A stretch of DNA of 64,000 nt from assembly GCA_028286395.1 (NCBI GenBank), contig JAQBRS010000003.1:1-64000 (forward strand), given 5' to 3'. The notes under the pieces were generated by a model. It searched no databases. It was not told the DNA's origin and saw nothing but the letters and a program-made list of their open reading frames with translations. Below, in pieces: positions 31,475 through 45,725 of this stretch (its first letter is position 1; each line of letters opens with the position of its first letter). The position numbers and the translations under genes were made by a program. The stretch is from Candidatus Saccharimonadota bacterium (GTDB lineage: Bacteria > Patescibacteriota > Saccharimonadia > Saccharimonadales > Saccharimonadaceae).

Positions 31475-33067
31475 ATGGCGCTAGACACGCAGGTTCCTTC
31501 GCGGAACTTGGAAGAAAGGAAAGAACTTCGGCTCCACAGCTTTAACGTAAAGCGACAGGGCGGCTGGTTTATTGGCTGCCTGTTCGTCGCACTGAGTCTC
31601 ATCAGCCTCGACTCTTCGGTAACGAAGATCGTTGGGGTTGGCGTTATTGGAATCGGCTTGCTTGGTGCAAGAAAGTTCCAAGACGGACTCGGGTATCGAA
31701 TCATGCTGGTTATCGTCGGAAGTCTGCGCCACCGTGCAAAGGCGAAAGGCGTGACAAGTATCGAACAGCTGAGGGTGACCGAAAAGGCACCGATCGACAT
31801 TTCAGCTATGTCGTATCCGGCAGTCGACGACGAAGGGAGAAGCTTTCGAATCGGGGTGTTCTATAACCCTGAGGACAACTGTGATACTTTCGTCGTCGTC
31901 GGAAGCGGCGTGAAACATCCAGGTGCAGATGCGCTTGACCTCATGAGGCAAGAGGATCTGTACATCGATGGTATTGCTGAGGTACTGGCAAACTACGACG
32001 GTCGCGTCGGAGTTGCACTGCCGTACATCAGTCGTCCCGTTAACATGCTTCGTCAGGAGCTGTGGGAGGGTCTGAACCTAGATCCTGCCGTACTGGATGC
32101 GGAACCGTTCGATTCAGATGACGATTTCCTCTATGCGAACGCATCTGTGGAAGAACGACAAGCTACGGCACTCATGCAGTCACGAGCTGCAGCCGAGCTT
32201 TACGAAGCAGATGTCGTTCGTGCGGTGGCAATGACCGTCCCCAGGCCATCAAGTTGGCCGAAGGTGAAAAACGGTCTCATCGGAGGAAGTTTGACACCGG
32301 AGCAACTCGAAGAGGCACCAGTCGTGAAGCTCGCCCTCTTGCTTGAGAGCGAGCTGCGGTCAAGAGGCATTGAAGATGCCGCAATTCTTGATCGAATCGA
32401 CATCGCGAAGTATGTCCGAAGTGGTTGGGATATGGTGAACATTCAGGACTGGTACGTCCAGCTTGAAACCGCCGATCCCCTCAACAACCCGGACGTCATC
32501 AGCGAGGGACTCGACGAGTGGCCTTCACACGAGATCGTGACTGGGAAGTCACGGCGTGGAGGCTACTACTCGCAGACTGATGGAACGTTTCATCGGCCAC
32601 TGCAAGCCAAGCGCTTCCTTACCTCGGAAGCTGCTGTCGGGGAGTTCGACCAAATCTTTGACACCCATGACCTTGGTTTTCCGAGGGACGTGGGCATAGC
32701 GGTGACGCTGTGCGGAGATGCGGTCAATCCCTACACCGAACGAAACTTGCTGAGACGCCAGATGGTGATTCAGTCGGCAGTCCAAAACCAGAAGAAAGGT
32801 GAAAGCCTGGAAACTGACGAGGACTACGAACGTTCGCAGAACAAGAAGAGAAGGGAGTCGGCGCTCTACCGAAGCAAGTCGATCGCACTCAGCTACAACG
32901 TGTTCGTCGTCGTTTCGGCAACCAGCCTCAAGGCGTTGGACGTGGCTACTGAGAAGGTGATCAAGCGCGCCAAGCGCAACCACATCGCCCTCAGGACAGT
33001 CAAGTGGGAGTTGCGGCAAATACGCGCGCTCTTCACTACCCTTCTTGGGGTGAGCATGTTCAACTAG
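31475..33067 (+). CDS. SCO6880-like T4SS protein (actinobacterial conjugation type)
   Basis: N-terminal TM pair; long soluble part ending YRSKSIALSYNVFVVVSATSLKALDVATEKVIKRAKRNHIALRTVKWELRQIRALFTTLLG. Confidence 0.72.
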   Translation: MALDTQVPSRNLEERKELRLHSFNVKRQGGWFIGCLFVALSLISLDSSVTKIVGVGVIGIGLLGARKFQDGLGYRIMLVIVGSLRHRAKAKGVTSIEQLRVTEKAPIDISAMSYPAVDDEGRSFRIGVFYNPEDNCDTFVVVGSGVKHPGADALDLMRQEDLYIDGIAEVLANYDGRVGVALPYISRPVNMLRQELWEGLNLDPAVLDAEPFDSDDDFLYANASVEERQATALMQSRAAAELYEADVVRAVAMTVPRPSSWPKVKNGLIGGSLTPEQLEEAPVVKLALLLESELRSRGIEDAAILDRIDIAKYVRSGWDMVNIQDWYVQLETADPLNNPDVISEGLDEWPSHEIVTGKSRRGGYYSQTDGTFHRPLQAKRFLTSEAAVGEFDQIFDTHDLGFPRDVGIAVTLCGDAVNPYTERNLLRRQMVIQSAVQNQKKGESLETDEDYERSQNKKRRESALYRSKSIALSYNVFVVVSATSLKALDVATEKVIKRAKRNHIALRTVKWELRQIRALFTTLLGVSMFN

Positions 33068-33089
33068 TAACACAGTGGAGGAACCGCTC

Positions 33090-33122
33090 CGGCCCGGGTA
33101 GCTTAAAACACTACCCGGGCCG
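33090..33122. other. Perfect GC-rich intergenic hairpin
   Basis: CGGCCCGGGTAG-CTTAAAACA-CTACCCGGGCCG. Confidence 0.85.
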
Positions 33123-33173
33123 AGCACTTCAATTATGCTGCCGAGAATACTCAGCATTGTAATCGAGGTGCTC
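33122..33173. other. Second, longer imperfect hairpin in tandem
   Basis: GAGCACTTCAATTATGCTG...CAGCATTGTAATCGAGGTGCTC. Confidence 0.7.
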
Positions 33174-33226
33174 ATTTATTGAGCAACTCGCCCGCACCTT
33201 AACATCCATCAGACCTTAGGAGAAAC

Positions 33227-34564
33227 ATGTACAACGATCAAACGACATCGTTCACGGCCCCAATCCGTGACGCGATCGGCCCGTTTTCGGGCTTCAGTCG
33301 TAATTATCCGAAAGACAGATCAGGCATCCGACTCGGGCCCATGCTCGATGTTCGCGAAGGCTTGTACTTCGACATGCCCAGAATGCGATCAGAGGGACGC
33401 TGCGGCGGCCCACTCGTTGGTATTCTCGGCGACAAGGACAAAGGAAAAAGCACGGTTGGCAAAATCCTCGCAACCGAGGATGGCGCAGTCTACAACGGCA
33501 TGAAGCAGAAACGCATTTATGCCGACAACCACCGCCACACGGAGTACGCAGAACTTGCGCGCTACTACAACAACAAGATGATCGGCCTCGACGAGAAGAT
33601 TAACGTCTTCGACCTCGAAGTCGGCTTCACGATTGCTGACCACCAGATCACGGGCGAGACACTGTTCGTTATCGCTAACGACGGTACCCGCCCGGTCAAC
33701 CACCAACAGTTTGTCATCGAGACAGCCGTCTTCAAAATGTTCGCTGATACCGAGCGTGAGAAGTCGGCCGAAAGTTTTGCGCGAATCCTCTTGGGACTTA
33801 CAGAACAGGACGGGTATAACTACCTTCTTGCTTCTGTGGATTTCAAAGACAAGACGCAGAACATCGACTGGGAGCAGTTCAAGCAAGATGCCGGCTACGT
33901 CGCTCAACGTGTCGTGCGATTCCTCAACGGATCGTTCGGTAAGACGATTGGCGGTACCGGCTCGATAGCAAAGCACCTGACAGGTGAGAACCTGCAAGGA
34001 GCCTCGCTTGGCCAGGACAAGCTCAGTCGGGCTACGGTGATAAACTTCTACCGGAAGGACGAAGCAACAACTGCATTCCTGATCAACTACCTCAACCGCA
34101 TCAGAACATCTGCGGAGGAGCGCGGAGATCGTCGTTTCATGTACGACACGGAATTGCATGACGAGAACTACGGCATGTGGGACTATTTCGAATACTCTGA
34201 CGACACGGTCAAGCGGAACAAGCGCAGCCGAACTTTGGAGAATGCTCCTCTGTTCGTGTTCACAACGCACAGTCTGCTGGACTACGGATCGGCAAAATAC
34301 AGCGAGTTGGCGTTTACGAACGCTCGCGGTATCGATGTGTGGTTCTTCTTCGGTATGGAGAAGTCTGCTGATCGCGAAGCGACCAGAGATTTCTTCAAGC
34401 TGTCGCCCATGGAAACGGAACGCCTGGCAAATTTGCAGGTGGGACAATTCGGATTCAAGGTCGGCAACGAAGATGTCCGATTCGCAGAGATCGTCCTGAC
34501 GCCCATGCGCAGACGACTCAGTTACACCAACAAGGCAAACGACGACGCACTCGTCCGCCGCTAA
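33227..34564 (+). CDS. VirB4/TraC-like T4SS ATPase
   Basis: P-loop GILGDKDKGKSTVGKIL; RRFMYDTELHDE Walker-B-like; APLFVFTTHSLLD. Confidence 0.78.
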   Translation: MYNDQTTSFTAPIRDAIGPFSGFSRNYPKDRSGIRLGPMLDVREGLYFDMPRMRSEGRCGGPLVGILGDKDKGKSTVGKILATEDGAVYNGMKQKRIYADNHRHTEYAELARYYNNKMIGLDEKINVFDLEVGFTIADHQITGETLFVIANDGTRPVNHQQFVIETAVFKMFADTEREKSAESFARILLGLTEQDGYNYLLASVDFKDKTQNIDWEQFKQDAGYVAQRVVRFLNGSFGKTIGGTGSIAKHLTGENLQGASLGQDKLSRATVINFYRKDEATTAFLINYLNRIRTSAEERGDRRFMYDTELHDENYGMWDYFEYSDDTVKRNKRSRTLENAPLFVFTTHSLLDYGSAKYSELAFTNARGIDVWFFFGMEKSADREATRDFFKLSPMETERLANLQVGQFGFKVGNEDVRFAEIVLTPMRRRLSYTNKANDDALVRR

Positions 34565-35185: not shown

Positions 35186-36424
35186 ATGAGAATGAGGCCA
35201 GTGCTTTTTGGCGGCCTCGCTTTCGTGGTCGTCATTGCACTCGTTGTCGTGTTCTTCGTGTCCATTGGCATCGGAGCAGCTAACTTCATTACGGCTTGCG
35301 GTATCAATCCCGCTCTCGTACTGATACCGCCTGCTTCGGAACCAAAAACGACCGTCAACCCGACGCCCAGTGCATCGGCAACTTCAACGACGTCGCCCAC
35401 AGCGACGTCGACTCCTCAGCCCGGAACGTTGTTCGCAGCATTTCAGGCACAGCCATCGTTCACTCCCGCTAACCAAGCGGAACAGCGGAAGAATGCGGCA
35501 ACCATTGTTGCGATCGGCCTGCAGCGTCCCGAGAAGTTTTCTGACCGGGACATTGCAGTAGCAGTCGCAACGGCGATTCAGGAGTCGAACTTGATCAACA
35601 AGCCGTACCTCGGGAAGAACAATGACCACACGAGTCTGGGGCTGTTCCAGCAACAGACATCGGTGGGCACCTACGGTTCGGCAAGTGACATCATGAACAT
35701 CAATCACAGTATCAACGCGTTTTACGACCGGCTTGCCGGTGTTGCGAATAGAAACCAGATGTCCATGATCGATATCGCGATCAAAATCCAGATCCCCAAC
35801 CTGAAGGCGTATCACGCCAGATGGAAGTGGGATGACCTTGCAAAAGAGATCGTCGGCATTTACCACAGCGGTTCGTCATCATCATCGGGCAACGATAACA
35901 TTTGCTCGTTGGCGGCTGGCGTTTCATCGAGTGGTGACGTACATCTTCCACTCGATCCGGGTTATCACGTATCCGACGGGTTTAACGACCCGCGACCGAA
36001 CCTCAATATCGGATCGAAGCCTCATATCGGCATCGACCTGGTCTATGGTTCAAACACGCTTGGGAGACCGGTGTATGCCGCTTTCTCAGGTACTGTCGTG
36101 CAATCTGGCTACGGAGGTGGCTGCAACAAGTCGAGTAACAATCCTGTCATGATTCTGTCGGCAGACGGACTCGAAACGGGGTACCTGCATATGAACGGAC
36201 AACAGATCCTCGTGAAAAAAGGGGATACCGTCGTTTCAGGACAAAGGATCGGTTCGATTGGAAGCTGCGGCCAGGCAACCGGCCCACATCTTCACTTCGA
36301 AGTTACCTCTGTTAGTGATCACGAAGCATGGTTGAGCACTTTGACAACCGTCAACAAGTACGGTTCCGTCTGGCTTGACCCAAACGCCATCATGGCACAT
36401 TACGGCGTCAAGCTTCTGCCGTGA
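35186..36424 (+). CDS. Bifunctional cell-wall hydrolase: lysozyme/transglycosylase-like domain + M23 metallopeptidase
   Basis: AIQESNLINKPYLGKNNDHTSLGLFQQQTSVGTYG; HIGIDLVYG...GYLHMNGQQILVKKGDTVVSGQRIGSIGSCGQATGPHLHFEV. Confidence 0.9.
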   Translation: MRMRPVLFGGLAFVVVIALVVVFFVSIGIGAANFITACGINPALVLIPPASEPKTTVNPTPSASATSTTSPTATSTPQPGTLFAAFQAQPSFTPANQAEQRKNAATIVAIGLQRPEKFSDRDIAVAVATAIQESNLINKPYLGKNNDHTSLGLFQQQTSVGTYGSASDIMNINHSINAFYDRLAGVANRNQMSMIDIAIKIQIPNLKAYHARWKWDDLAKEIVGIYHSGSSSSSGNDNICSLAAGVSSSGDVHLPLDPGYHVSDGFNDPRPNLNIGSKPHIGIDLVYGSNTLGRPVYAAFSGTVVQSGYGGGCNKSSNNPVMILSADGLETGYLHMNGQQILVKKGDTVVSGQRIGSIGSCGQATGPHLHFEVTSVSDHEAWLSTLTTVNKYGSVWLDPNAIMAHYGVKLLP

Positions 36425-36540: not shown

Positions 36541-36571
36541 GAGCACCCTTGTCGGGTGCTCGTTTCATTTT
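36541..36571 (+). terminator. Intrinsic terminator at end of T4SS locus
   Basis: GAGCACCC-TTGTC-GGGTGCTC-GTTTCATTTTT. Confidence 0.75.
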
Positions 36572-38595
36572 TGCGTATCGGTCAATGAAAATACCCATGC
36601 GTCCATATACGTCCGCGAATTACCGTCATCGATATAGGCATCTTGTTGACCAGAAACCAACTGGGCTGCTTTATCGGGCTGAGCCAGCGCAAAATACATG
36701 AGGACGTAATCACCAAGCGCAACATTATAGTTGTCATTTCGAATTGAAGCGTTAATAACCGAGGTGATCGATGTACCGTCAGTAGCATATTGAAGCATCG
36801 CAGGACTCATAGGAATCAGCTGAATACCTAGTTTTGCGTTTGCCTCATCGCTAAAGAACGTTGAGTAGGTTCGTTTTCCGCCGAAACTAAGTGACGTCAG
36901 TGGGCTTGTGAAGTTTTTTAAGTATGCAGGTGAAGTATCAACCGTTCGCCAAGCCGCTTTTGCCGTGGCTGCTTCGTTTGAGAGCATCCACGACGCAGAG
37001 GACTGTAATTCAGTGTTATTCGTCAGTTGCGCCCACAATGCGACGCCATTCCAGGCATTAATTGCCTCTGAACTTGATTCCTGATTATTTCCGTCAGCAA
37101 ACGGTGACAATCCCGCCGCCCAAGAGTGGCCTGCGTAGGCATCATAATAGCGTTGAACAGGAAAGTTTGACGACGGTGCGTATGAAGCAATATCTGCGAC
37201 TAGGAGGTTAATCTTTTTTTGGGAATTATTTAGGAAATCTGCATCATATTTACCAAGAATACTTGCCGCATAAATGAAATATCCGTAATGAAAATGGTGA
37301 TCATTAAAGTCTTCTGATCCAAAAGCTTTTGTCTGCGCGGCGATGCCTTTTAGCGTTGGATCATAGTAAAAATATTGTCCATTGAGACGAGTAGAAAACC
37401 CGTCTTTTAAGATCGAGATCAGTTGGCTACTTTCCTTCTTTTGACCAAGTTGCTCCGCAATATCGAGGAGTGTAGCTGCTCTTGCAAGTTGTTTGCCGGC
37501 ATAATAGCTATCATTTGCGGTAATTGAAGTCTTTGCAACATCTGCAGGGAGGCTTGCGATCAGTTGTTGCTTGTGCGCATCACTAATACGTGACAGATCG
37601 AGCGCGTTCGACGGCTTCAGCGTCGAGACTGATGTTATGAAGGTATTACCCTTAACCGCCTTCATAGGTCCGTAAACACTGTCATACGTCGAAATGGCAC
37701 CATCATTCGAAGTGAGGCTACTATAGCTCATAGGAACAAACACAGTTGGTTGTAGATTTGCAGTTTTATATTCATAAGTGGTTTGTATTGTATCGTTTGT
37801 ACCCGCTGCATCAGAAGTCGAAGCACTCACCAGCTGGTTGCTCGCAAAGTTCTTCAAACCGTCTTTACTACTGCTATCAGGAAGTGCATAGAATGTCACT
37901 AAACTCTTGTTTGAAGCTTTAATCGTTGCCCTAGAGCCACTTGTCGTGATGCTAGCGCCACCACTCGCAGTAGCCACGTAGTCATGACCTGCTTTTGTAT
38001 AGCGAAGATACGTTGATGAACTGTCCTTCGTGGCTGTACTTATATCGCTGAGTGCCAGACTTGTGTCAGTACTTGAAGCGTAAAAAACGTACGGTGACCC
38101 CTCGGCTATTGTTAGCTTTGCTAACTCCTTTGAGCCGTTCTTATAGGTCAGTGTCGCCGAAAACTTATCGAAACGCGTCAACATAAAGTTAGTTGCGCCG
38201 TCTATGCTAGCTACTATGCCGGGTGTGTGTTCGCCCGTAATGACCGTTGGCTGAGACTGGACAGTGGGGAGTCCTATCTCAAAACCTACATCTTTCGCAA
38301 GAAAGCTGAGTGGCATTGGATACACAGGCAGTGGTGTTTTTTGTAAAACCATACCGCTGATCCATGAGTTTGTTGGAGGAATGATACTTTTATCAATACG
38401 GTCAGTGAATGCTGATGACCCACTCTTCTTCGGTAACGTATTCAGCGTCGCTTGATCGACCAACGGCGCGTGAGTAATAGCGAGTGGGTTCTTGATAACA
38501 TGCTTACCCACCAGTAGTGCGACCGTACCTACCGCGACGACACTGATAACGAGAATACTTCCCGCAATGATGCCGAGCTTTTTTCGATTCACCAT
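36565..38595 (-). CDS. GH81 endo-beta-1,3-glucanase, membrane-anchored
   Basis: PTNSWISGMVLQKTPLPVYPMPLSFLA; NDHHFHYGYFIYAASILGKYD; GHSWAAGLSPFADGNNQESSSEAINAW. Confidence 0.9.
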   Translation of the reverse strand: MVNRKKLGIIAGSILVISVVAVGTVALLVGKHVIKNPLAITHAPLVDQATLNTLPKKSGSSAFTDRIDKSIIPPTNSWISGMVLQKTPLPVYPMPLSFLAKDVGFEIGLPTVQSQPTVITGEHTPGIVASIDGATNFMLTRFDKFSATLTYKNGSKELAKLTIAEGSPYVFYASSTDTSLALSDISTATKDSSSTYLRYTKAGHDYVATASGGASITTSGSRATIKASNKSLVTFYALPDSSSKDGLKNFASNQLVSASTSDAAGTNDTIQTTYEYKTANLQPTVFVPMSYSSLTSNDGAISTYDSVYGPMKAVKGNTFITSVSTLKPSNALDLSRISDAHKQQLIASLPADVAKTSITANDSYYAGKQLARAATLLDIAEQLGQKKESSQLISILKDGFSTRLNGQYFYYDPTLKGIAAQTKAFGSEDFNDHHFHYGYFIYAASILGKYDADFLNNSQKKINLLVADIASYAPSSNFPVQRYYDAYAGHSWAAGLSPFADGNNQESSSEAINAWNGVALWAQLTNNTELQSSASWMLSNEAATAKAAWRTVDTSPAYLKNFTSPLTSLSFGGKRTYSTFFSDEANAKLGIQLIPMSPAMLQYATDGTSITSVINASIRNDNYNVALGDYVLMYFALAQPDKAAQLVSGQQDAYIDDGNSRTYMDAWVFSLTDTQK

Positions 38596-38600
38596 GCGTT

Positions 38601-39329
38601 TTAATGACCAAGCGGCTTAAATAGTTGCTGAATTGAAGTGAATAAACCTTGGAATATATTATCCTGATTTAGCTGAAGTGTCGCTTCTACCGGAGTACCG
38701 ACAGAGAATCGGAAGTCGCTAATATCGGCATTACTAATACGCGCTTTGACGACGGTATCAACGATATCTCCATTACTCACAAGTGCTACGGAGAAGATAG
38801 TTGCGGTCTGTGTACTATTATCTGGCAAACGGAGGCTGACCTTATTGGTTTTACTGATACGAGCATAGTCGGGAGGCGAAAGATGAAAATGAGCAACAAC
38901 GTAGAGCGAACCAACGGTATCAACGCTCGCAACAATTGCTCCGGCAGGTACGTATGATCCTGCGCGATAATCAATTTTTTCAATCACCCCCGCGTCATTT
39001 GCTTTGAGTTGAATGTAATTGGTCGTGGAGTCGACGCTAAAGGAGAGTGACGATGTCGTAATAAGACCCTTTGTAAGCGCATCATTTAGCTGGGTACTTT
39101 GAATCTCGAACAGCACTTGGCCTTTCGTTACTTTGTCACCTTCTTCAATGTTTTGCTTAACGATGAGTCCTGGATAGTCAGTGCCGACCGTGGTTGAGTC
39201 AGCGGCAAGCTCGGCTTTTGATGATTGCGAAACTGACATAATACCGTTGAGGTACATAGACAATGCGCCGACGATAAAAATGACGACTAATATACCGAAG
39301 ATGAAACGGACTCTACTTGTAAATTTCAT
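38601..39329 (-). CDS. HlyD/biotinyl-lipoyl-like membrane-fusion protein
   Basis: Single TM; DYPGLIVKQNIEEGDKVTKGQVLFEIQS and VIEKIDYRAGSYVPAGAIVASV half-motifs. Confidence 0.82.
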   Translation of the reverse strand: MKFTSRVRFIFGILVVIFIVGALSMYLNGIMSVSQSSKAELAADSTTVGTDYPGLIVKQNIEEGDKVTKGQVLFEIQSTQLNDALTKGLITTSSLSFSVDSTTNYIQLKANDAGVIEKIDYRAGSYVPAGAIVASVDTVGSLYVVAHFHLSPPDYARISKTNKVSLRLPDNSTQTATIFSVALVSNGDIVDTVVKARISNADISDFRFSVGTPVEATLQLNQDNIFQGLFTSIQQLFKPLGH

Positions 39330-41008
39330 TATAGTGCTCCTTCCGTGATGACTGTCGTTTTTGAACGTTTTGCTTCTCGCTTCTGTTCGCGTTTTTGCTT
39401 TCGACGCTGCTTCTTCAAACCTCTTGCTTCGGATAAAGCCATGTAAACGAAATACCCGAATACGAACGTATTAAGCGCGTTCCAGGCAAGAGAGATTGAG
39501 AATTGATCAGTGTAGAGGGCTTTTATTGCGCCGACAACACTCGTCAGAAGCAAGAATATGAATACGTACACCTGAATACGAACATAATTAAACGGCGAGT
39601 CATACGAAACGGTGTTCGTTGCGTGCCATGCTTGGTCGCGTCGCGTCAGTGCGTTGAGAAACGCCTTGATGTAAATAGGGAATGATACGTTTGAAAGCAT
39701 CAATGTCTTAAACTTGAATCCACCCATTGTGTAAAAGGCGAGGACGAGTTGCGAAACATAGAATCCGCTATACATAAGCCCCCATTGCCAGATAGGAATT
39801 GTCGTTGCAATTGGTGACAGGTTAAAGAAAATCTGTAGGGGAGGGAGGAGTAAAAGAAGCAGTACAGAAAAACCGATGAAATAGTAAGACGTGGTCGCAA
39901 AGTACTGAAGTCGCTGATCAATCGTCAAATGACGTCGAGTAAGCGGGTTGGCGCGAAGGAAGATCTCGAAGCTACCCGTTGCCCAACGAAGTTGTTGTTT
40001 TGAGTAAGCCATTAAGGTCTCTGGAGTTTTTCCAACAGCAAGAACGGTCGGAATGTACACCGAATCGTATCCTTTTTCGTGAAGGTGCAGTGATGTCCAT
40101 ATATCTTCCGATTTAGACTTTGTGACCATGCCGCCAATTGACTCGACTGCTTTTCGACGGAAGACAACGTTTGTCCCTACACAGAATGCGGCGTTGAAAC
40201 GGTTTTTACCTGATTGAATCAGTGAGTAGAAAACGTTTTGCATAAAGTTTGCCGCCGTCGACACAAAATTGTTCTGATTGTCGTAAAACTGTGGAGTCTG
40301 AACAAAAGCTAGGTTATCATTCTCAAAAAAGGGAATTGTTTCATATAAAATTGTTGGGTCAGCGACAAAGTCTGCATCAAGTATTAGATAAAAATCACCA
40401 TCAGTAACGCTGAGACCATAGTTAATATTTCCCGCTTTAGCATTATTGTGAACCGGTCGTCGAATGTATCCTACCCCAACTTGCTTTGCGAGGGCTTTGA
40501 CTTCATCAGAATCACCGTCGTCAAGAATGAGCGTCTTGTGCTTTCCGTAAATATTCTTTGCCGCAATAGCTGTTGCCTTAATCTCTTCAAGAGGCTCACC
40601 ATATACGGGTATATAGACATCAACTTTAATAGCCCTTCGATGAACGTACATTGGCACAGTTCGAGATATCTCAGCATCTTGTTTCTTTAAAATGCTAATA
40701 GCCGATTTACCAACTGCTTCGTTGTATAGTTTTGCCTGAGCACTGTGATACTCGTAGTTTCGCGGATTCATTCGACCACTAAGAATTGTCCAAAATGAGA
40801 GTAACCCCTGAATAATAATGAAAATCTCGGCAATAAGCGCTAATGTATATGGGAGCGGATCACCACGGTAGGCCGGCTGAAGCAGATAATTAAGATATAT
40901 GAACGCACCAATTGTTGCACCCGTAAGTATAAGCGTCACCGTCGGGGACGTTAACTGCTTTTCAATGCGATTAGCAGAATCCTGCAAGTTCTCTGTAGGT
41001 TTTGGCAC
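39329..41008 (-). CDS. GT2 processive glycan synthase, cellulose/curdlan-synthase-like
   Basis: DVYIPVYGEP; DADFVADPTI; QTPQFYDNQ; QQLRWATGSFEIF (QxxRW); multiple TM. Confidence 0.92.
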   Translation of the reverse strand: MPKPTENLQDSANRIEKQLTSPTVTLILTGATIGAFIYLNYLLQPAYRGDPLPYTLALIAEIFIIIQGLLSFWTILSGRMNPRNYEYHSAQAKLYNEAVGKSAISILKKQDAEISRTVPMYVHRRAIKVDVYIPVYGEPLEEIKATAIAAKNIYGKHKTLILDDGDSDEVKALAKQVGVGYIRRPVHNNAKAGNINYGLSVTDGDFYLILDADFVADPTILYETIPFFENDNLAFVQTPQFYDNQNNFVSTAANFMQNVFYSLIQSGKNRFNAAFCVGTNVVFRRKAVESIGGMVTKSKSEDIWTSLHLHEKGYDSVYIPTVLAVGKTPETLMAYSKQQLRWATGSFEIFLRANPLTRRHLTIDQRLQYFATTSYYFIGFSVLLLLLLPPLQIFFNLSPIATTIPIWQWGLMYSGFYVSQLVLAFYTMGGFKFKTLMLSNVSFPIYIKAFLNALTRRDQAWHATNTVSYDSPFNYVRIQVYVFIFLLLTSVVGAIKALYTDQFSISLAWNALNTFVFGYFVYMALSEARGLKKQRRKQKREQKREAKRSKTTVITEGAL

Positions 41009-41189
41009 TCAACACCTCCATTAAATCTATAGCACTGTATCCATTTTACCCTAGATTTGTGCTCCGACGTAATGTTGATGGTTTATCGGGATTGTTATTC
41101 GACAATTATCTATGCAGTTTTCTAGCACTTTAAGCAAAGCTCCTCATCTGTTACAATGTGAAAGCTATAGAGTAATCTATATCAATCAA

Positions 41190-41264
41190 AGGGGCATAGT
41201 ACAACGGTTAGTACATAGGTCTCCAAAACCTGAGATCGTGGTTCGATTCCACGTGCCCCTGCCA
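41190..41264 (+). tRNA. tRNA-Trp (CCA)
   Basis: AGGGGCATAGTACAACGGTTAGTACATAGGTCTCCAAAACCTG...GGTTCGATTCC...TGCCCCTGCCA. Confidence 0.96.
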
Positions 41265-43976: not shown

Positions 43977-45725
43977 CTATCGCGCCATTTGTGTTTGTAT
44001 CTGACGGGCGGTATCGGCTATCTGCGACCAGCTGCTGTTATTTGTTAGGATTACCAAGACATAGGTCGAGGAAGGACTGTAGACGATAGCGGCATCGTTC
44101 AGGTAGCCCCACAAGAAGCCAACTTTATCAGATACAGGTACTCCAGCACCGGCCGGGATGCCCTGACGGTATATTTGCTGACTCATAAGATTCAACAGAA
44201 GCGCCTGATCAGTTGAGGTAAGGATCTCACCAGCTGAAAGTTTCTGTAGAAATAATGATTCGTCATTTGCAGTTGAGTGAAATGTATCACTCCCTTGATA
44301 CGTACTGCCCAATCCGAGGCTATTTGCTTCACTAAACACCGTATCCCACCCAATCCTAACGCCTAATGCTTGTGCACAGTCATTGTCGGAGTTAACAATC
44401 ATACGTGAAAAACAAGTTGCCATATCGGTATTACCCGTCGGGTCGCTCCAGTGGAATGTTCCGTTTTCAATACGAAGCAAGGTACTGTAGGCCACAAATA
44501 GCTTATATGTACTTGCTGTAACGAAATCTTTCGTCCCATTCGAACTTGCTGTCCATCCACGAGTACTCATTTCGTGAACCGAAATACCGTACTCCCCTTT
44601 GCTTGATACTAGATAATCAAGAAGTGCTTGTAGCCCAGCCTGGCCATTTGAGTATGTGCGTACATAACTTATCGGTGATGCCACTGGTTTCATGGCAACA
44701 CTAAGACTTCTTTGATCACTCGTAATAGAGGTACCTACAGATGTAGCAGTTGTCGTCGTATCGAGGTAGCTACCGGTAGCACCGGTCTGACGAGCAATCT
44801 CTTGATTATCAAGTAGTGTCAGAGTTGTTGCCGTTGGTGCTCGATATAGTTTTTTCGCAATTGTATCTAAATATGACTTTGTTGCAATGACATCAGTGCC
44901 AATCGTGATCTTTTTTGTTGTCGGATCAGCAGTGAATTGTAACCATGATCCGATAGTATCCGCGGGTATCGTGAAGTCCATACCGCTCACCGTCAGAACG
45001 AAGGGCTTGATGAATGACGTCGCCTGGGTTGCGGCAACATGAACCGCATCAGCTGTATATATCGGCGCAATGCTATGGCCCGAAACTGTCACATTAACGG
45101 GAATTGACGCTGTCATATCTTTCAGAGGAATCGTAATCTCATCAGCGGTAAATTCACGACCTGGTTGTGGCGGATGCTCCGTCACTTTACCATTTTCGAT
45201 AGTAATGACGCCTTCGATAGGTTTTGCGTTATTCTTTAGTGCCAATGTGGATGCGTATGTCTGTAACGTACTCGTTTTTATCGTTGGCCTCAAGCTACTT
45301 TGGATAAATGCCTTGTTTTGAAAGAAAAGAGAGAAAGGAATGAGGCGCATAACAAAAGGGTATGAAAATACCTGATGAACATTATCGTCACTCACAAATG
45401 TCATGCCAACTTTAGCGGGTGTTATCGTTTCCTTATCGGTACCAACAGTAAGGGTGAACGCCTGCTGATCATAGAGAGCAAGCTGTTGTTTCACGGCAGT
45501 AGTGTCCTGAAAAGTTAAAAGCTTCCCCGCCAACCTTGTTGCAGGCAAGGAACGATCGTTAGGGTAGATAAGTTGCACCACGACAGAGACGACACAAATG
45601 GTGATAATGACCCCAACAAGGATCAGTAATGCTTTTTTATGATGACGTTTCGCAAAATGAAGAGATCGACGCATATGCGAGGAGTGGGATACCTCATTCG
45701 AACTGCCAAAGGCGTTGTCTTTCAT
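43977..45725 (-). CDS. Membrane-anchored class A beta-lactamase-fold serine hydrolase with N-terminal PG-binding-like repeats
   Basis: FVTASTYKLFVAYS (SxxK), MIVNSDNDCAQ (SDN), SDKVGF (KxG). Confidence 0.85.
   Translation of the reverse strand: MKDNAFGSSNEVSHSSHMRRSLHFAKRHHKKALLILVGVIITICVVSVVVQLIYPNDRSLPATRLAGKLLTFQDTTAVKQQLALYDQQAFTLTVGTDKETITPAKVGMTFVSDDNVHQVFSYPFVMRLIPFSLFFQNKAFIQSSLRPTIKTSTLQTYASTLALKNNAKPIEGVITIENGKVTEHPPQPGREFTADEITIPLKDMTASIPVNVTVSGHSIAPIYTADAVHVAATQATSFIKPFVLTVSGMDFTIPADTIGSWLQFTADPTTKKITIGTDVIATKSYLDTIAKKLYRAPTATTLTLLDNQEIARQTGATGSYLDTTTTATSVGTSITSDQRSLSVAMKPVASPISYVRTYSNGQAGLQALLDYLVSSKGEYGISVHEMSTRGWTASSNGTKDFVTASTYKLFVAYSTLLRIENGTFHWSDPTGNTDMATCFSRMIVNSDNDCAQALGVRIGWDTVFSEANSLGLGSTYQGSDTFHSTANDESLFLQKLSAGEILTSTDQALLLNLMSQQIYRQGIPAGAGVPVSDKVGFLWGYLNDAAIVYSPSSTYVLVILTNNSSWSQIADTARQIQTQMAR

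Follow-up and report, generated by a model that had tools for sequence, protein, structure and literature searches.

A predicted operon for the synthesis, export, and trimming of a curdlan-like beta-1,3-glucan in a Saccharibacterium

The window analyzed here is a stretch of 64,000 nucleotides (positions 1 to 64,000 of contig JAQBRS010000003.1, assembly GCA_028286395.1) from a Candidatus Saccharimonadota bacterium, a very small, parasitic-type member of the Saccharibacteria. Within it, three consecutive minus-strand genes encode a predicted processive glucan synthase of glycosyltransferase family 2 (GT2), a HlyD-like adaptor, and a membrane-anchored glycoside hydrolase of family 81 (GH81). Together these genes likely make, export, and trim a linear, curdlan-like beta-1,3-glucan. 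The case draws on protein families, catalytic motifs, operon arrangement, co-conservation, and correlated divergence, all read from the DNA and its translations; from these we infer the beta-1,3 linkage, the trimming role of the GH81 protein, and the channel-capping role of the HlyD-like protein. A first-pass annotation had proposed a glucan synthesis, export, and trimming operon at this locus, and that overall interpretation is supported. The parts and the logic are known; what sets this operon apart is an apparently distinct clade of synthases, paired with another family of hydrolase. The features of the operon are as follows.

39329..41008, minus strand: predicted GT2 processive glucan synthase, 559 aa, BcsA-like GT domain plus transmembrane (TM) channel, GTG start
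38601..39329, minus strand: HlyD/membrane-fusion-type adaptor, 242 aa, one N-terminal TM helix
36565..38595, minus strand: predicted GH81 endo-beta-1,3-glucanase, 676 aa, N-terminal TM anchor
39327..39331, minus strand: TAATG stop/start overlap joining GT2 and HlyD, seen in the sequence
41015..41019, minus strand: GGAGG ribosome-binding site before the GT2 GTG start, read directly in the sequence

The operon and its three proteins

All three open reading frames lie where the first-pass annotation had placed them, with the minimal spacing it described. The stop codon of the GT2 gene and the ATG of the HlyD gene share one base (TAATG), a junction that likely couples their translation, and the HlyD stop is 5 nt from the GH81 start. 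Because of this overlap and short spacing, the three genes very probably form a single transcript. A promoter scan returned sites no more numerous than in shuffled sequence. The genome is 852 kb and 99% complete, and the GC content of the operon is ordinary (44.5% vs. 46.3 ± 3.2%).

The GT2 protein matches Glyco_trans_2_3 (2e-28) and CelA (1e-70, far below the CelA cut-off). It scores highest against bacterial cellulose synthases, including BcsA structures (2e-47), and its predicted model (pLDDT 84) has a BcsA-like fold, with 9b8v and 4p00 as the best structural matches and 9b8v at the top. The DxD and QxxRW motifs reported earlier are present, as DAD at 211-213 (D211/D213) and QQLRW at 338-342. 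With SED at 300-302 (D302), they make up the D, D, D, QxxRW signature of BcsA-like processive beta-glycan synthases. GT2 enzymes with QxxRW polymerize and translocate their product. The protein also carries QTPQ at 237-240 and FCVGT at 275-279. A domain search found no PilZ domain in it.

The HlyD-like protein (HlyD_3 match, 9e-11) has the split lipoyl domain, beta-barrel, and TM anchor of HlyD/membrane-fusion adaptors. The earlier description of an anchored HlyD-like protein overlapping the synthase gene holds, with a single N-terminal TM helix and the TAATG junction. The protein lacks the long alpha-helical hairpin with which classical adaptors reach a partner in the outer membrane; in its place the model has a linker of ~25 residues with one short helix. 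The predicted fold best matches ZneB, MexA, and other adaptors, and BesA, which also has no hairpin, is among the matches. A hairpin-less adaptor suits a cell with one membrane. The protein is not an equivalent of BcsB, which corrects the analogy drawn earlier with the envelope protein of cellulose operons, though a HlyD gene does adjoin the synthase in crdASC and bgsBA.

The third protein matches Glyco_hydro81C (1e-58), and the solved GH81 structure 6fop aligns with its residues 73-671 (5e-57). The motifs NDHHFHYG and DGNNQESSSEA are present and vary little or not at all across 31 aligned sequences; the protein has both the domain and the conserved acidic motifs of the family. The N-terminal domain model PF03639 had no match in the genome. 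The C-terminal model PF17652 does detect GH81, so PF03639 is insensitive here. A single N-terminal TM helix and the intact catalytic motifs bear out the earlier call of a membrane-anchored GH81. No carbohydrate-binding module was found in it by domain search. Anchoring is kept among the aligned operon GH81s but its type varies, with a TM helix in 20/31 and a lipobox in 8/31; the other three were left unassigned. The sole activity on record for GH81 is beta-1,3-endoglucanase, and a tested member leaves barley mixed-linkage glucan and carboxymethyl cellulose uncut (PMC9609564). Hydrolases linked to synthases match the polymer, and their specificity has been used to infer the polymer of cellulose operons (PMC7710045).

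Co-conservation of the three genes

GH81 was found in six of 379 sampled genomes of the phylum (Patescibacteria). All six have a BcsA-like GT2 within ~3 kb of it, and five have the order GT2-HlyD-GH81, hereafter the cassette; in the sixth (G108) GT2 and GH81 are back to back with no HlyD. A GT2 scan limited to one genome per species gave 80 loci. Among the best 22 of these (L042-L063), HlyD and GH81 genes lie downstream in every case (the HlyD of L062 was recognized by Pfam), while GH81 accompanies none of the other 58. By their position in the tree two of the 22 are Saccharibacteria-type; the other twenty are from Actinomycetota, with carriers that include Cellulomonas, Sanguibacter, Demequina, Microbacterium, Nocardioides, and a member of the Acidimicrobiales. 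The nearest named relative of the window cassette is that of another Saccharibacterium (L043). In Cellulomonas, 40 of 60 genomes have the cassette GT2, and GH81 is downstream on the same strand in 39 of the 40; in the remaining genome, 1.4 kb separates the locus from the contig's first base.

Flanking genes differ between carriers, and a set that reappears in so many genomes while its surroundings change is not a chance association. Pairwise protein identities also correlate (Mantel r 0.90 for GT2-GH81 and 0.91 for GT2-HlyD, p 0.001). The first-pass annotation had named conservation of the three-gene order as a check and a failure of GH81 to co-occur with the synthase as a refutation; the pair co-occurs, in the same three-gene order, in both Patescibacteria and Actinomycetota.

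Several related loci were seen along the way. The cassette GT2 of one Cellulomonas genome is split over two frames (G819:C1:360112-361646) and is either a pseudogene or a sequencing error. A second, large GH81 gene lies directly behind the operon in eight Cellulomonas genomes (G799, G803, G805, G810, G831, G834, G835, G839). In G009, of the same genus as the window genome, the cassette (L007:3889-8328) adjoins GT4 and GH57 genes of alpha-glucan type.

Phylogeny and active-site motifs of the synthase

Reference synthases in the tree were CrdS from Agrobacterium pAt1 (L155), BgsA (L154, L156), BcsA (L122, L123, L158), NodC, and PgaC. Apart from the anchor W344, 13 residues are published for AtumCrdS, and the CrdS sequence has every one of them; its gene is flanked by a 1455-bp HlyD gene (published crdA: 1458 bp) and a gene encoding 426 aa. 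Both BgsA genes stand behind a HlyD gene. A Sinorhizobium meliloti sequence (H11) was rejected as BgsA and relabeled BcsA; it has a PilZ-type tail and BcsB/BcsZ-like neighbors.

The cassette GT2s form a single group, apart from NodC and PgaC and outside the group of Bcs, Bgs, and Crd synthases. A placement with chitin or poly-N-acetylglucosamine synthases, which the first-pass annotation had given as a reason to abandon its reading, was thus not found in this tree, which contains no hyaluronan synthase. Forcing the cassette GT2s together with CrdS was rejected by the approximately unbiased (AU) test (lnL 153 worse, AU p 6.9e-5). Placing the synthase against CrdS and BcsA, as had been suggested, therefore left the term "curdlan-like" standing as a functional analogy but not as membership of the CrdS clade; because the GT2 lies outside that clade, the term does not denote descent.

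The nearest relatives of the cassette GT2s are from other Patescibacteria, Chloroflexi, and Actinomycetota, and a GH8 gene stands beside the GT2 in 12/12 of those tested. One Saccharibacteria genus has both pairings: G209 carries the GH81 cassette, and G236 has GH8 beside GT2 and no GH81 match. No GH8 was found in four cassette genomes tested. Cassettes from Saccharibacteria and those from Actinomycetota form two deeply branched sister clades. We considered recent transfer from an actinobacterial host, which is unsupported because of these deep sister clades and the ordinary GC content of the operon.

Active-site changes accompany the change from GH8 to GH81: FCVGT and SED are gained and the FxVTxK gate is lost. 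Among 146 aligned GT2s, the pair xVGT + SED occurs in 27/27 cassette enzymes, in CrdS, and in just two others (L033, L035). Elsewhere the pairs are FFCGS + TED (BcsA), FCCGS + TED (BgsA), and xCGT with TED or AED (GH8-linked relatives). The FxVTxK gating motif is fully conserved in BcsA, CrdS, and BgsA (PMC6821405) and is intact or nearly so in the GH8-linked relatives. In its place, all 27 cassette GT2s have W-x-x-[TS]-[NG]-x, which is WHATNT in the window protein. At the channel positions singled out in the same paper (PMC6821405), Q240, Q257, and K268 of the window GT2 correspond to Q237, Q259, and K270 of CrdS, where BcsA has H, N/G, and L/T. Because these motifs are shared while the AU test rejects a common clade, convergence is the best account of the resemblance to CrdS.

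Further GT2 loci were seen outside the cassette. GH8-GT2 pairs are found in many Patescibacteria (L064-L083), often followed by another membrane protein (PMT_2-type in L066), and are candidate cellulose-like operons; with the GH8-GT2 locus of G236 (G236:C8:232084-234605), cellulose-type and beta-1,3-type operons would occur within one Saccharibacteria genus. In G048 (L166:2429-7003), the gene before a GT2 with CVGT/SED encodes a secreted protein with a weak resemblance to GH26 (30 bits), perhaps another pairing of linkage and hydrolase.

Comparison with known systems

One of the closest known systems is crdASC of Agrobacterium. There too a BcsA-like GT2 stands beside a HlyD-family protein (CrdA), and QxPQ, FCVGT, and SED are common to CrdS and the window GT2. 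The synthases nonetheless belong to separate clades, the gene order is GT2-HlyD-GH81 rather than HlyD-GT2-CrdC, the operon described here has no CrdC, and its adaptor is 242 aa against 484 aa in crd. No hydrolase gene was seen in the crd cluster. Of the CrdS-specific residues, the equivalents of Q237, Q259, and K270 are present in the window GT2 and the other five are absent. The rhizobial mixed-linkage glucan system bgsBA has the same two-gene pairing of a HlyD protein and a GT2, but BgsA has FCCGS/TED and an arginine at the K268 position, belongs to a different clade, and has no GH81. In bcsABZ (GH8) and the clostridial ccsZABHI (GH5), a processive synthase and its cognate hydrolase share an operon as here. 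The window operon differs in that its hydrolase is GH81, FxVTxK is lost, and BcsB, BcsC, and PilZ are missing. Further marks of Bcs systems, GH8 and GGDEF domains, were not found in the genome.

Cellulomonas provides a link to known curdlan producers. According to PMC3544764, C. flavigena produces curdlan in quantity and other members of the genus produce some, and Cellulomonas GT2 genes were flagged there, by locus tags only, as 35-39% identical to curdlan synthase. Many of the actinobacterial cassettes come from this genus too. The accessible text of that paper reports no HlyD-GH81 linkage, and the match with the cassette GT2s is presumptive. At the level of genes, the cassette is a candidate for making and turning over curdlan in Cellulomonas. 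We found no description of a GT2-HlyD-GH81 operon or of beta-1,3-glucan synthesis by Saccharibacteria in the open-access literature, which is weak evidence of novelty as most subscription journals fall outside that search.

Proposed function

We propose that the GT2 would polymerize glucose from UDP-glucose into beta-1,3-glucan and drive the growing polymer out through a TM channel of its own. The HlyD-type protein, in the same membrane, would cap or extend the outer channel mouth, and the chain would be extruded past this hairpin-less adaptor across the single membrane. As the chain emerges, the anchored GH81 may cut it and so determine how long it becomes, set it free, or remove chains that are stuck, the part that BcsZ (GH8) plays in cellulose synthesis. 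The genome encodes a GalU-like protein (276 bits). A search of the genome for GGDEF domains gave no match, which makes c-di-GMP control of the kind known for cellulose and BgsA unlikely. The polymer may serve in adhesion, at the cell surface, or in storage.

Since the cassette clade is separate from CrdS, beta-1,3 specificity would have arisen independently. We lean, with less assurance than for the function of the operon, toward the view that bacteria have a second family of beta-1,3-glucan synthases, of independent origin and common to Actinomycetota and Patescibacteria. It would have split from GH8-linked cellulose-type synthases, with GH81 replacing GH8, a HlyD adaptor added, CrdS-convergent motifs acquired (xCGT/xCGS to CVGT; TED/AED to SED), and the FxVTxK gate lost. 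Among bacteria, CrdS is the chief case for the open question of how a GT2 synthase settles on beta-1,4 or beta-1,3 linkage. Another clade that shows these motif changes, beside GH8-linked relatives, would allow the question to be tested by comparing named residues. It further suggests that some Saccharibacteria make a beta-glucan surface of their own and do not only degrade that of others.

Several observations weigh against these proposals. The CrdS channel residues H374, K382, W422, E439, and H442 are not conserved in the window GT2. L033 and L035 are related GT2s that have CVGT/SED with no GH81 nearby. CVGT was rejected as a lone marker of beta-1,3 linkage because plant CesA, a beta-1,4 enzyme, also carries VGT, so the valine by itself does not mark linkage. 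The role of HlyD is putative in every such system, and the GalU-like match falls below the curated cut-off. Cellulomonas gelida, reported to make no curdlan (PMC3035266), carries the cassette (L048).

Alternative products and roles

Some of these points would sit well with a GT2 that makes mixed-linkage (1,3;1,4) glucan or cellulose, with GH81 editing beta-1,3 stretches only or guarding against foreign glucan. The pairing of GT2 and HlyD is also that of bgsBA, cellulose synthases give the GT2 its best scores, the clades closest to it are linked to GH8, and the CrdS channel residues are largely missing. We consider this unlikely: the tested GH81 enzyme leaves both barley mixed-linkage glucan and cellulose uncut (PMC9609564), no GH8 turned up in the four cassette genomes tested, and QxPQ, FCVGT, and SED differ from BcsA, the latter two also from BgsA.

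A different role for the same beta-1,3-glucan, as a storage polymer or carbon reserve that GH81 mobilizes rather than trims, also seems improbable to us. For C. flavigena, a reserve function of curdlan was proposed, and how it is re-used was described as unclear (PMC3544764); both the second GH81 behind the operon in eight Cellulomonas genomes and the GT4 and GH57 genes beside the G009 cassette would fit mobilization. The GH81 is, however, held in the membrane and encoded with the synthase, and the window genome has no GH3 (GH3 was searched for, GH1 was not).

The beta-1,3-glucan hydrolysis genes of a soil Saccharibacterium were earlier read as degradative (PMC6031116). That the GH81 here is a scavenger of fungal or plant beta-1,3-glucan with the GT2 beside it by accident is very improbable: GH81 is widely a secreted degradative family and Cellulomonas has separate large GH81 enzymes as well, but gene order and linkage are kept across two phyla, at least 28 of 31 aligned operon GH81s have a TM helix or lipobox, the window GH81 has no carbohydrate-binding module and its genome no GH3 beta-glucosidase, and most operon GH81s form a clade of their own (support 100), apart from secreted GH81s that include the large ones of the same Cellulomonas genomes. 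Three divergent operon GH81s (L010, L011, L062) fall outside that clade.

Neighboring genes

A tRNA-Trp gene (CCA; 41190-41264, plus strand) is directly upstream of the operon and is a possible insertion site. On the other side, the operon is flanked by a convergent M23 peptidase gene (35186-36424, plus strand) that has no match in the four relatives examined. The open reading frames preceding it (31475-34564) resemble a secretion or conjugation ATPase set and are a candidate for one. Farther upstream of the operon, 43977-45725 (minus strand) encodes a membrane-anchored protein with beta-lactamase-family and PG_binding_4 domains.

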